DNA from: Bacteroidota bacterium
GTDB taxonomy: Bacteria > Bacteroidota > Bacteroidia > Flavobacteriales > Flavobacteriaceae
Length of the DNA stretch: 50,622 bases
NCBI GenBank assembly: GCA_003650305.1
Contig: QMOV01000007.1
Location: forward strand, 1-50,622
Reading direction: 5' to 3'
Program-made: the position numbers and the translations under genes
The notes under the pieces: generated by a model
What the model saw: only the letters and a program-made list of their open reading frames with translations
The model's database searches: none
Told to the model about the DNA's origin: nothing
Shown here: in pieces, positions 3,481 through 7,372 of the stretch
Position numbering within the stretch: position 1 is the first letter of the stretch
How the letters are laid out: each line of letters begins with the position of its first letter

Positions 3481-4728
3481 TTAATTAGAAATATTAACAG
3501 ATGAGCCTTCTCCAAATCCAATAATTTTATCGTAACGTGCTCCTAAATCTCTGTAATACACTAACACTTTATAATTGTTTTCGGTTTGGTCAAAATTTCC
3601 ACTAATTGCGCCTTCTTCTAATTTACCATTTTCATCCACAACAATATATTTATAATTGTAAAACCCTTGTTTCAATTTTAGTTTAGATTCATAATAACCA
3701 GATTTTAGATTGAAACTCATTTTAGTAGTTTCATCTATGGCATAATTATTAAAATTACCATACACATGAATACTTTTATTATTAAATAGTTCTGGATGCT
3801 GTATTGAAAAATGTATAACAGTATAATCAGCTTCAATTGCTACATTATCTGTATCTAAAGCAGTAATTAAAAAATTACCATTAATATCTGGATTGTAAGT
3901 ATAAGGCCTGTTTGCTCTTATTATATCTGTAAATAAATAGTTGTGATAGATGTCTTTTAAATCAATAAATTGCACACCAACATTGGCACCTCTTACATCT
4001 TTGTTTTCGAAGAATAAAAATTCGTTTCCTGCCCAAAAACTGGATTCTGTATCGTATTTATAAATGAGTTGGCGACCAATAGTATATAATGGCTTTAAAG
4101 TTGTAATTGTAGTATTCAAATTATTATTTTGTATAACAACAACTTTAATGGTTTGTTTAGGATTATTGAAATGCATTGAAGGTGAAGAGATGTTAAAATC
4201 TACAGATTGCTTTTGTTGTATATACTTTACATCACGAGAACGTTTAATAGCAACACCAACATTGGCAATGTCTTGATAAATCATAAATTTTCGACTAAAC
4301 ATTAATTCTTCATACTCATTATAAATATTTATCATATAATTTCCTGACATTTTTAATCGTGTTTGCTGATTTGGAATTTGTAAAGTATAATGCGAGTAAA
4401 TTTGATAAGTGTTAAAAGAATTTTCGTAGTTAACAATCCTTAAGTTATCGAATCCTTGAAGATATTCAGACTTCATTAAATTTGAAGAAGTCCAATCAAA
4501 ATTATAATGTGTTATGGTGTAATAAAAATCGGCTTCATCTCCATTTAAAACATCAAATTCTAAAAGCAAACGTTCCCTCAATTTTAAAATTGGTAATTGG
4601 CTTTGGTTAGTATTGCTTTTAAAAGTGATGGTTTTTATATATTCTGGAGGATTTACCTCTTTAACTTGACCAAAAGTTAGCGCTGTAAAACACAAGAATA
4701 TAAAGAATAGTTGATGCCTAAATTTCAT
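3481..4728 (-). CDS. Type IX secretion system plug protein (DUF5103)
   Basis: 415 residues with a clear signal peptide (hydrophobic core ending FTALTFGQ, new N-terminus near Gln21). The body is beta-rich and matches the DUF5103 family, now described as the plug subunit that blocks the periplasmic side of the SprA translocon of the T9SS in Flavobacterium johnsoniae (established knowledge). Recognisable blocks are YYTITHYNFDWTSSNLMKSE near residues 65-84, the GNYMINIYNE segment, and a C-terminal domain starting near HVYGNFNNY. Expected location is the periplasm, bound to the outer-membrane translocon. Its presence implies a working T9SS elsewhere in the genome. Confidence 0.88.
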   Translation of the reverse strand: MKFRHQLFFIFLCFTALTFGQVKEVNPPEYIKTITFKSNTNQSQLPILKLRERLLLEFDVLNGDEADFYYTITHYNFDWTSSNLMKSEYLQGFDNLRIVNYENSFNTYQIYSHYTLQIPNQQTRLKMSGNYMINIYNEYEELMFSRKFMIYQDIANVGVAIKRSRDVKYIQQKQSVDFNISSPSMHFNNPKQTIKVVVIQNNNLNTTITTLKPLYTIGRQLIYKYDTESSFWAGNEFLFFENKDVRGANVGVQFIDLKDIYHNYLFTDIIRANRPYTYNPDINGNFLITALDTDNVAIEADYTVIHFSIQHPELFNNKSIHVYGNFNNYAIDETTKMSFNLKSGYYESKLKLKQGFYNYKYIVVDENGKLEEGAISGNFDQTENNYKVLVYYRDLGARYDKIIGFGEGSSVNISN

Positions 4729-4837
4729 TTAAAAATAGTTTGTGTGTAAAGGTAAACAAATTTTATGCCTAAAAAATGTGTTTAGATAATCTGAAGAATT
4801 TAATCATTAGTATTTTTTTTGTCCATACTTCCCTTAA

Positions 4838-4853
4838 ATTCCCTAAAGGGAAT
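4838..4853. repeat. Palindrome at the 3' edge of the DUF559 gene
   Basis: ATTCCCTAAAGGGAAT forms a 7-bp stem with a 2-nt centre. It includes the TAG stop codon of the DUF559 gene. The core CCCTAAAGGGAA recurs on the other side of the same gene at 5258-5269. Confidence 0.7.
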
Positions 4854-5235
4854 CCTCGAGCAATTTATATATTATTTTACTCATTACACTATCTATATTA
4901 TCAAGAACTTCAGTATTTGTAAATCGCATTTCACTTATTCCAACACCATTTAAGTAGGTGGTTTTTTTATTGTCTTTTTCTTTTTGTTCAGCATTGTTGT
5001 GATAACCCCCATCAATTTCTATTGATAATCTTTTCTTGTGGCAATAAAAATCAAGAACAAAAAACTTGATTGGATGTTGTCGTCTAAATTTAAACCCTTC
5101 AGGTTTTGTTTTTAAAGTTTCCCATAGCAGTTTTTCTGGTTCAGTCATATCAAATCTTAATTTTGCTGCATTCCTAAAAATTTTAGGAGTAGCTCCATCA
5201 TGCATTCCAGAGATTTTAAGCCAGTCTTTTTGCAT
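4843..5235 (-). CDS. DUF559 endonuclease-like protein
   Basis: 130-residue protein of the DUF559 family, related to very-short-patch-repair and other PD-(D/E)XK nucleases. Core motifs are MTEPEKLLWETL, GFKFRRQHPI, VLDFYCHKKRLSIEIDGGYH (the D...E-x-D catalytic core) and a final strand with MRFTN. The function of this small type is not established; DNA cleavage is inferred from the fold. The gene is wedged between a PH-domain gene and the T9SS plug gene. Both edges carry the palindrome TCCCTAAAGGGA: the left copy (4838-4853) provides the last codons and the TAG stop, and the right copy is at 5258-5269. This suggests a cassette that moves between intergenic sites. Confidence 0.88.
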   Translation of the reverse strand: MQKDWLKISGMHDGATPKIFRNAAKLRFDMTEPEKLLWETLKTKPEGFKFRRQHPIKFFVLDFYCHKKRLSIEIDGGYHNNAEQKEKDNKKTTYLNGVGISEMRFTNTEVLDNIDSVMSKIIYKLLEDSL

Positions 5236-5257
5236 TATATAATTTTTAATAATGGCT

Positions 5258-5269
5258 TCCCTTTAGGGA
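5258..5269. repeat. Palindrome at the 5' edge of the DUF559 gene
   Basis: TCCCTTTAGGGA, the partner of the palindrome at 4838-4853, sits between the start of the DUF559 gene (5235) and the stop of the PH-domain gene (5278). It is followed by TTGAGGG, another feature of these G-rich intergenic repeats. Confidence 0.6.
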
Positions 5270-5277
5270 TTGAGGGT

Positions 5278-5811
5278 TCATTTATTTTTTATCTCATTTA
5301 AAATATCTCTTATTTCAATAAGCGTATTATTAATTTGCTCGTTGCTTGTTTGGGTTTGAGTACTAATAACTCTTTCATTTTGTTTTAATAATTCTCTTTG
5401 ATGTAATACTTTTTTCTTAAAATCGGAAGCGCCAATAATACCTACTAATTTCATATCACTTCCTTGTGGATTGCTATGTCCTGCGGTTTCGATTTTTAAA
5501 ATTCGTAAATCGAGATATTTTAATAAAGGATTTTCAATAAATGTTAAATCTTGAATATTTTCTAACGGAATTGTTTTTTCAACTTTAAAGAGCACCCCTT
5601 TTTTAAATTCTAAATGCTTAGTAGTTAATTCGCAAGACATGTTTTCGTAATAGCGTTTGCTTATATATTGTCCAAGACCAAGAAGCCAAACAATGAGTAT
5701 AGGAATTCCTATAACAGTAACTAATAAGAAAAATGCAATTGTAATAAAAATGTATGTTTTAATCTTCGGATTAAATTCTGCTTTTAGCATGAGTTTATTT
5801 TCTGAAATCAT
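5278..5811 (-). CDS. PH domain-containing membrane protein (bPH2/YdbS type)
   Basis: 177 residues. A hydrophobic segment at about 20-50 (IFITIAFFLLVTVIGIPILIVWLLGLGQYI) would form two short or one long membrane helix. It is followed by a bacterial PH domain with the family pattern: CELTTKHLEFKKG, then KVEKTIPLENIQDLTF, and LRILKIETAG. A polar, helical C-terminal tail (about 130-177) may form a coiled coil. bPH2 proteins are membrane-associated with no agreed function. It lies upstream of the DUF559 gene on the same strand and 205 nt from the divergent nqr operon. The start is the first ATG of the frame and fits the family. Confidence 0.85.
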   Translation of the reverse strand: MISENKLMLKAEFNPKIKTYIFITIAFFLLVTVIGIPILIVWLLGLGQYISKRYYENMSCELTTKHLEFKKGVLFKVEKTIPLENIQDLTFIENPLLKYLDLRILKIETAGHSNPQGSDMKLVGIIGASDFKKKVLHQRELLKQNERVISTQTQTSNEQINNTLIEIRDILNEIKNK

Positions 5812-6016: not shown

Positions 6017-7372
6017 ATGTCCAACGACATTCGTATTAAAAAAGGTCTAGACATTAAACTTAAAGGTAAAGCCGAAAAAGCAATTGAAAAAGCTATAGTA
6101 AGTAACTTCTACACCATTAGACCAGAAGATTTCCACAATGTTATTCCGAAACTTATTGCAAAAGAGGGTTCAAAATTAAAAGCAGGAGAACCTGTATTTT
6201 ATGATAAATCTAATGAAGCTGTTAAATTTGCATCTCCAGTTTCTGGAGAAATCATTGAAATAGCACGTGGTGAAAAGCGTAAAATAGTAGCGATTAAAAT
6301 TCAAGCAGATAGAGAGCAAACCTATCATGATAATTGTGAAATTGATGTTGATACTGCATCTTCTGAAGAAATAAAAAGCCAACTTTTAGCATCAGGATGT
6401 TGGCCATTTATTAAACAACGTCCTTACGATGTTATTGCTAATCCAGACATTGCGCCAAAATCTATCTTTGTTTCGGCTTATGCAAGTGAACCTTTAGCTG
6501 CAGATATGGATTATGTATTGCAAGGTAAAGAAACCGAATTACAAGCTGCAGTTACAGCTTTAGGTAAATTAACAAAAGGGACAGTACATGTTTCGGTTGA
6601 GAAGAATTCAAATTCTCCATTAGCTGGTTTATCAGGAACTACATTGCATAAAGTTTCTGGTCCACATCCTTCAGGAAACGTTGGTACACAAATTAATAAA
6701 ATCGATCCTGTTAATAAAGGCGAAGTAGTTTGGACTGTGAATCCGCAAGATCTTATTATTATTGGAGAGTTATTATTAACTGGTAAATTTAATGCAGAAC
6801 GCATTATAGCTTTAGCAGGTTCTTCAATTAAAAAGCCAAGATATTTTGTCACTAAAATAGGAAGCGAAGTAGCAACAATGATTTACGATTATGGTATTGA
6901 AAAAGAGGCTAATGTTCGTATAATTTCTGGAAATATATTAAGCGGAAAGCAAATTCATCCAGATGGTTATCTTGACTATTATAGTAATACTATTACAGTA
7001 ATTCCAGAAGGTGACGATTACGAATTCTTAGGTTGGACAACACCTATTTTCAATAAAGTATCAGTTTCAAGAGCATTAACATTTTCTTGGATGCTTCCAA
7101 AGAAAAAATTCAATTTAGACACAAACACAAATGGTGAGCGTCGCGCATTTGTAACTACTGGAACTTACGAAGAAGTGTTTCCGTTAGATATTTATCCAAT
7201 GCAAATTTTAAAATCATGCATGTATAAAGATTTAGACGAAATGGAAGCTTTAGGAATGTACGAAGTTGCACCTGAAGATTTTGCACTTACAGAATTTGTG
7301 TGTGTATCTAAACAACCACATCAGGAAATTATACGAAAAGGTTTAGACTTAATGTTAAAAGAAATTGGATAA
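6017..7372 (+). CDS. nqrA: Na+-translocating NADH:quinone reductase subunit A
   Basis: First gene of a complete nqrABCDEF operon. NqrA is the peripheral cytoplasmic subunit that contributes to the quinone-binding region of the Na+-NQR, which couples NADH oxidation and ubiquinone/menaquinone reduction to sodium export. It is 451 residues, as expected. The N-terminal barrel-sandwich (GLDIKLKGKAEKAI, KEGSKLKAGEPVFYDKSN, FASPVSGEI) resembles the RnfC-like fold, and the GPHPSGNVGTQINKIDP block is the best family signature. There are no membrane segments. A spacer with two 30-bp repeats separates it from nqrB. Confidence 0.97.
   Translation: MSNDIRIKKGLDIKLKGKAEKAIEKAIVSNFYTIRPEDFHNVIPKLIAKEGSKLKAGEPVFYDKSNEAVKFASPVSGEIIEIARGEKRKIVAIKIQADREQTYHDNCEIDVDTASSEEIKSQLLASGCWPFIKQRPYDVIANPDIAPKSIFVSAYASEPLAADMDYVLQGKETELQAAVTALGKLTKGTVHVSVEKNSNSPLAGLSGTTLHKVSGPHPSGNVGTQINKIDPVNKGEVVWTVNPQDLIIIGELLLTGKFNAERIIALAGSSIKKPRYFVTKIGSEVATMIYDYGIEKEANVRIISGNILSGKQIHPDGYLDYYSNTITVIPEGDDYEFLGWTTPIFNKVSVSRALTFSWMLPKKKFNLDTNTNGERRAFVTTGTYEEVFPLDIYPMQILKSCMYKDLDEMEALGMYEVAPEDFALTEFVCVSKQPHQEIIRKGLDLMLKEIG

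Follow-up and report, generated by a model that had tools for sequence, protein, structure and literature searches.

REP-like palindromes are common, and to our knowledge HUH transposases are the only partner enzymes known for them. One large class, the CGTC-tagged repeats, is described in an excerpt of Di Nocera 2013 (PMC3733652) as one whose members "apparently lack a dedicated transposase"; the same excerpt lists RPE-4 and RPE-6 of R. conorii as intragenic. Among nucleases, EDxHD is listed among the homing endonuclease families and exemplified by I-Bth0305I (PMC3943268, in the portion available), and YcjD of E. coli served in 2005 as an already recognised PD-(D/E)XK protein close to Vsr (PMC1189080, likewise in excerpt). 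In the open-access literature, to which the search was confined, no paper linking DUF559 or Vsr-like nucleases with palindromic repeats was found. The locus described here and its relatives are best read as such a link, that is, as a nuclease–palindrome module comparable to the RAYT–REP modules and formed by a DUF559 gene and its palindromes.

The window, by which the whole analysed stretch of 50,622 nucleotides is meant, carries on its minus strand a gene of 130 aa (4843–5235) that belongs to DUF559 (PF04480; E 1.3e-29, 102.7 bits against a Pfam gathering score of 20.6) and resembles the Vsr/EDxHD nucleases. The gene adjoins a T9SS plug gene (3481–4728, minus strand) and a bPH_2 (PH-domain) gene of 177 aa (5278–5811, minus strand). 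An earlier annotation made from the letters of the DNA, hereafter the sequence-only reading, had placed a palindrome at the 3′ edge of the nuclease gene, where it supplies the stop codon, and a matching one just upstream of the start, and both descriptions hold. The 3′ end element of the cassette (4831–4853) comprises the palindrome ATTCCCTAAAGGGAAT (4838–4853), which contains the minus-strand stop codon TAG (4843–4845), and the half-arm copy CCCT (4831–4834). The 5′ end element (5258–5276) comprises the palindrome TCCCTTTAGGGA (5258–5269), 22 nt upstream of the ATG (5233–5235), and the half-arm copy AGGG (5273–5276), and it stops 1 nt short of the stop codon of the PH gene. Such a half-arm copy, called a foot in the following, lies on the outer side of each palindrome; read inward, the two ends are CCCTTAAATTCCCTAAAGGGAATCC and CCCTCAATCCCTAAAGGGAAGCC. 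Imperfect terminal inverted repeats are present in the window cassette, and the same is seen in the leuS cassette described below. The genome-wide search for the flanking palindrome that had been proposed as a check returned only two exact copies of TCCCTTTAGGGA in the 2.84-Mb genome, both flanking the DUF559 gene, and no occurrence of the reversed 12-mer used as a control. Under a first-order Markov model of the window, 0.17 copies of the 12-mer would be expected per 2.84 Mb and 3e-5 within 500 nt.

The protein is related to a homing endonuclease. A profile built from nine sequences matched 3hrl with an E value of 8e-31 and 3r3p, the catalytic domain of I-Bth0305I, with an E value of 1e-6. 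The predicted structure, a model of modest confidence obtained from a two-row alignment with a mean pLDDT of 68.5, scored Z 14.5 against 3hrl, 11.9 against I-Bth0305I and 10.8 against Vsr, and profile and modelled fold together point to membership of the Vsr/EDxHD fold. Five residues (D62, E73, D75, H79 and D88) are invariant in the nine aligned sequences and are putative catalytic positions. The sequence-only description of the nuclease as Vsr-like, and its comparison of the cassette with homing endonucleases, find support in this similarity in sequence and predicted fold to I-Bth0305I.

Hairpins accompany DUF559 genes far beyond the window. A match to the window protein was found in 55 of the 149 genomes sampled from the family; the loci fetched are a part of these matches, the remainder being mostly long frames or weak. 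The flank statistics cover 56 free-standing genes with frames of 90–259 aa. Frames of at least 260 aa were left out, as were L012 (both copies, with a short flank or a run of N), L040 (the same genes as L012), L049 (a run of N), L078 (a contig end) and L051 and L069 (broken frames). With a stem of at least 6 and at least 5 GC, thresholds of the author's choice among three settings scored, hairpins occupy 75 of the 112 flanks and stand on both sides of 28 of the 56 genes, as compared with controls in which plug-gene loci gave a hairpin in 1 of 594 tiles and in 0 of 58 flanks of the plug gene, and more distant tiles of the DUF559 loci in 15 of 281. Footed hairpins were counted in 39 of the 112 flanks (24 of the 56 genes); shuffled sequences gave 7 in 1120, the plug-locus tiles 0 in 594 and the far tiles 7 in 281. 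Outside the family, a phylum-wide sample of other Bacteroidota gave a hairpin in 25 of 38 flanks of 19 DUF559 genes. In plasmid-collection records from other phyla, foot-hairpins were present in 11 of 32 flanks; shuffling produced them in 29 of 640 cases, and 3 of 32 stretches further out had one. The signal there is weaker, and 8 of the 16 loci are blank by that test.

The foot is a copy of half an arm, such as ACACCCCTAAA or CCCTCAAT; as a rule it bears no GTAG or CGTC tag, and a few feet contain CGTC (L032). Among the 15 genes with a footed hairpin on both sides, 7 pairs point in–in, 2 out–out and 6 are mixed, and on this ground it was not upheld that the two ends are, in general, strictly inverted. 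By eye, the in-frame cassettes treated below have the foot outward wherever one of their ends shows an element. Rfam returned no match in ten loci. Several arrangements were encountered in passing. At L118 (2781–3530), in a Bacteroidales genome, the 3′ elements lengthen the N-terminus of the next reading frame (HTPSYRRGPGGGHTPSSRRGPGGG). At L011, L012 and L013, from three genera, inspection by eye shows that the DUF559 cassette comes after a truncated DUF6090-like frame, interrupted in all three at one position (..GILIA), and that a more complete DUF6090-like start lies downstream. In Sphingomonas parapaucimobilis (L211, L212 and L213), DUF559 genes lie inside operon-like gene rows, where their neighbours are transhydrogenase genes in one case, GatB/YqeY and dnaG in another, and sufB and sufC in the third.

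The kind of palindrome follows the clade of the nuclease. CCCTAAAGGG or CCCTTTAGGG is found within 250 nt of 11 of the 12 genes of the window clade, which was defined by protein score after the flanks had been seen, and of 0 of 46 others, with 1 hit in 229 tiles; the remaining member, L016, does not have the palindrome core of its clade. Across 58 genes (1627 pairs), protein identity correlates with the number of GC-rich 8-mers common to the flanks (rho 0.31), a value that none of 2000 permutations reached. Where two proteins are at least 60% identical, their loci have 18.9 such 8-mers in common near the gene and 2.3 at 400–650 nt. The neighbours differ, an adjoining ORF being common to 6 of 76 same-clade locus pairs. 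At the level of whole genomes, GTCCCCTNNAGGGGAC occurs in 14 of 55 DUF559-positive and 2 of 94 DUF559-negative genomes (Fisher 1.6e-5), and G122, one of the two negative genomes, showed a weak DUF559 match in another search. CCCTTTAGGG followed by GGG gave 113 matches in the nine genomes that hold the window clade and 44 in the other 140, the reversed control giving 44 over all.

Some kinds of palindrome are also dispersed. GTCCCC palindromes number 94 in total (forward counts added). In G048, G042, G087, G128 and G141, all or most of the copies lie at the DUF559 gene; G137, G081 and G073 have 25, 24 and 12 copies, mostly away from DUF559 among the places listed. ACACCCCTAARGTCCCCTCRAGGGGAC is common to most of the dispersed GTCCCC copies read, across genera. 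Dispersal is thus a feature of this sister type in other genomes; the window palindrome, with its two copies, is not dispersed in its own genome. In G137 (C1, 218600–219500; L127), four GTCCCC elements stand in a tandem-like array with a spacing of 141–142 nt, on a stretch with no DUF559 match.

The site occupied in the window has empty counterparts. In 20 of the 22 loci examined, the window's own among them, the plug gene lies directly beside the counterpart of a 451-aa gene (6017–7372, plus strand), which we take to be nqrA; in the window genome, the DUF559 and PH-domain genes sit between these two conserved neighbours. Comparison of this locus with relatives had been suggested as a search for an empty site, and an empty allele was indeed found, although the PH gene is missing there too, so that a site empty of the cassette alone was not obtained. 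No strong match to the bPH_2 gene was found in any of the 39 other relatives searched. The PH gene is an accessory gene inserted at the same site as DUF559, and it follows that the insertion measures about 1.1 kb and that its edges are not the palindromes. The nuclease gene had been said to separate two unrelated genes; plug and PH genes do flank it, but the latter is itself part of the inserted DNA. The insertion at this site is larger than the DUF559 cassette and, because its content varies between genomes (DUF559 and PH here, other genes in the sister genome G004), the plug site is an insertion hot spot.

Upstream of the plug gene, G004 has a TCCCTAAAGGGA sequence together with a DUF6090 gene and a degenerate HUH transposase, and the 6017 gene is not in view. 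The transposase is a decayed TnpA of the IS200-like kind and bears CCTTTAGG-like ends of its own, the DUF6090 gene adjoins AATCCCTAAAGGGAT (L082, 93–1426), and a DUF559 gene is absent from the fetched stretch of this site. HUH transposase genes at other loci (L164, L172, L173 and L154) have long hairpins of a common kind, AGACCTCACAGGTTTTTAAAACCTGTGAGGTCT and variants. In G003, of the same genus, a 62% identical DUF559 gene lies between different genes and also ends in a CCCTTTAGGG palindrome with a foot.

Filled and empty sites bounded by the elements themselves are seen elsewhere. Between pyrG and yidC, G001 and G004 carry DUF559 between a left and a right element; in G000 the left element is, in addition, present twice, G002 of the same genus has a solo element only, and the seven loci printed from other genera (L180–L186) have neither cassette nor element. 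Within leuS, G000 and G003 contain an in-frame cassette of about 420 nt running from TCCTATCCCCAACCCTTTCC..GGAAAGGGA to TCCTTCCC..GGGAAGGATTTAGGATGGGA, and the region measures 507 nt in these two genomes as compared with 87 nt in G001, G002 and G010, so that filled and empty alleles exist at one site in close relatives, as with homing endonucleases. In the LeuRS alignment the insert is present in 3 of 19 sequences (G000, G003 and G006), that of G006 having lost the nuclease motif. The sequence-only reading is thus supported in part: its compact mobile cassette agrees with cassettes that have palindromes of their own at unrelated loci in different genera and with empty alleles in sister species, and at the window's own site the insertion is of the larger kind described above.

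Further in-frame cassettes, with elements at the edges in most, were found in LeuRS of other genera, in RecG and MetH, and at the start of HemD. DUF559 lies in frame within, or fused to, LeuRS at L002, L010, L019, L025, L027 and L031, RecG at L020, L021, L023 and L026, MetH at L029 and L033, and HemD at L022 and L024, and L036 groups with the MetH pair. These assignments rest on Pfam for L002, L019, L021, L022, L024, L027, L029 and L033 and on a LeuRS motif or tree position for the others. The automatic hairpin scan gave nothing at L029, L033 and L036, where the elements were seen by eye. In several cases the footed palindromes are translated at the edges of the insert, and at L019 the right-hand element recurs within the frame of leuS. 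The leuS, recG and metH cassettes hold DUF559 alone between their elements. The LeuRS, RecG and MetH frames read straight through and Pfam detected no intein domain in them; an intron or intein is not required of free-standing homing endonucleases. These cassettes form one clade (98/89; six tree rows for leuS and three for metH), so that a few old insertions followed by losses fit as well as ongoing movement does. No new insertion was seen in the genomes compared, and by eye no target-site duplication was recognised at the leuS, plug or pyrG sites.

In E. coli, the DUF559 gene ycjD lies between sapF and fabI. A 64-nt foot-hairpin repeat between ycjD and fabI, presumably the Box C repeat, is present in 5375 of 5426 genomes at a median of 18 places each, and a place covering at least 80% of the sapF–ycjD query in 3361 of the 5426; the repeat thus persists without the gene at that site. 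In the two strains without ycjD that were read, an efflux operon takes its place, an arrangement already published according to the part of the source at hand (PMC12817139). As the operon fills the site in both, E. coli was rejected as a clean empty-site case.

Several other explanations of these hairpins have to be weighed. That two short similar sequences came to lie near one gene by chance is scarcely credible: 12-mers are short, and the window holds 7 matches with up to two mismatches where 2.55 are expected, but the expectation of 3e-5 within 500 nt and the restriction of exact copies to two in the genome speak against it, and the family-wide pattern already refutes it. Terminators typically take the form of a GC-rich hairpin at the end of a gene, and in 5 of 58 genes the 3′ hairpin overlaps the stop codon, so that ordinary transcription terminators or operator sites, kept for regulation only, might be supposed. 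However, only 4 of 111 hairpins are followed by the T-tract of an intrinsic terminator, and for this reason the terminator reading was rejected; moreover, the hairpins stand on both sides of the gene, inside the leuS and recG frames and dispersed far from the gene, and the control genes do not have them (none of the 58 plug-gene flanks). A regulatory role as the sole explanation is accordingly very improbable.

The palindromes could instead be the REPs of HUH (RAYT/IS200-type) transposases, with the DUF559 genes as passengers between them. RAYT subclass 2.6 of the Bacteroidetes is described, in an excerpt (PMC6006769), as having "atypical secondary structures" on its flanks, further copies of which occur in the genome; a Y1_Tnp match is present in 13 of the 16 genomes tested, and a degenerate TnpA occupies the same plug site in G004. 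Yet the other three genomes (G058, G077 and G123) have DUF559 and no Y1_Tnp match, several Y1_Tnp loci have other hairpins of their own, and none of the 30 inspected Y1_Tnp loci, of which 23 belong to genomes with the GTCCCC palindrome, carries it. A RAYT-driven REP was rejected because of this absence from 30 HUH loci, and since the kind of palindrome tracks the DUF559 clade, the passenger reading appears distinctly improbable. The palindromes might also be old, dispersed hot spots of insertion or recombination that DUF559, PH and DUF6090 genes enter passively, the nuclease having another job such as Vsr-like repair or defence. The PH gene that came along at the plug site would fit, as would G004, where DUF6090 next to AATCCCTAAAGGGAT fills that site and DUF559 is absent from the fetched stretch, and the DUF559 cassettes that by eye lie repeatedly against DUF6090-like genes (L011–L013). 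The clade-specific match of nuclease and palindrome argues against passive entry, as do the return of CCCTTTAGGG followed by GGG to the level of the reversed control in genomes without the window clade and the leuS, recG and metH cassettes, which carry only DUF559 between their elements. Passive hot spots are therefore unlikely.

We consider it reasonably probable that a DUF559 gene and two footed palindromes constitute one mobile module, spread by nuclease-dependent repair. In such a module, the nuclease would recognise its own footed hairpin, whether in duplex, cruciform or single-stranded DNA, and would cut copies of it or the DNA close by. If the break were then repaired from a template bearing the cassette or the repeat, the cassette or the short repeat would spread. 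The process would be homing-like, except that the recognition site would form the ends of the element itself and could disperse on its own, in the manner of REPs with their RAYT transposases. Cutting or movement of the palindrome by the nuclease is an inference. The DUF559–hairpin pattern looks like an overlooked kind of mobile DNA. A wider proposal, towards which we lean slightly less than away, is that DUF559 nucleases are the moving enzymes of a large unnamed class of bacterial mobile elements, acting on a cognate footed palindrome, spreading both the cassette and solo palindromes, and having colonised intergenic regions, operons and essential genes (leuS, recG, metH and hemD) in several phyla. 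Were it true, it would explain orphan palindromic repeats, for instance those next to ycjD in E. coli. A widespread family of "function unknown", related to a homing endonuclease and associated with clade-matched palindromes, offers a testable partner for orphan repeats, and DUF559, E. coli YcjD included, gains a testable substrate. In addition, nuclease cassettes are found in frame inside essential enzymes without a splicing domain.

Among known systems, the RAYT–REP modules (REPtrons) are similar in that the gene of a small DNA-processing enzyme lies between short footed palindromes, which also occur solo and co-vary with the enzyme. Here, however, the enzyme is a nuclease of the Vsr/PD-(D/E)XK type and not a HUH tyrosine transposase; the foot repeats the arm of its own hairpin, often in a CACCCC-like form, whereas that of RAYT–REP is GTAG; and DUF559 cassettes occur in frame in housekeeping genes. 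With the EDxHD homing endonucleases, represented by I-Bth0305I, the catalytic fold and sequence are shared, as are filled and empty alleles at fixed sites such as leuS. In contrast to I-Bth0305I, DUF559 comes without an intron or intein, corresponds with its 130 aa approximately to the catalytic domain alone, and has palindromic ends, some kinds of which disperse by themselves.

The stem of the CGTC-tagged REPs is ATTCCCGC, which was found at 0 of the 16 DUF559 loci in plasmid-collection records; GCGGGAAT is present at 3 of these 16, outside the printed flank elements. The CGTC-tagged REPs resemble the DUF559 palindromes as short palindromic repeats of Proteobacteria and Bacteroidetes without a known enzyme, as far as the excerpt goes (PMC3733652), and some DUF559 feet contain CGTC (ACCCCGTC, L032). 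The DUF559 stems, however, are C-rich/G-rich with half-arm feet, and the DUF559 palindromes look like a different kind; identity with the CGTC-tagged REPs is not claimed, because the ATTCCCGC stem is missing at the 16 loci. E. coli ycjD is likewise a DUF559 gene with a foot-hairpin repeat alongside, but differs from the window system in that repeat and gene are linked by position only and the repeat occurs in nearly all E. coli genomes, while ycjD is gone from the site in the strains read that have an efflux operon there. Finally, the rickettsial palindromic elements are also palindromic repeats inserted within protein genes, whereas the in-frame insert described here is a complete nuclease domain between two palindromes.
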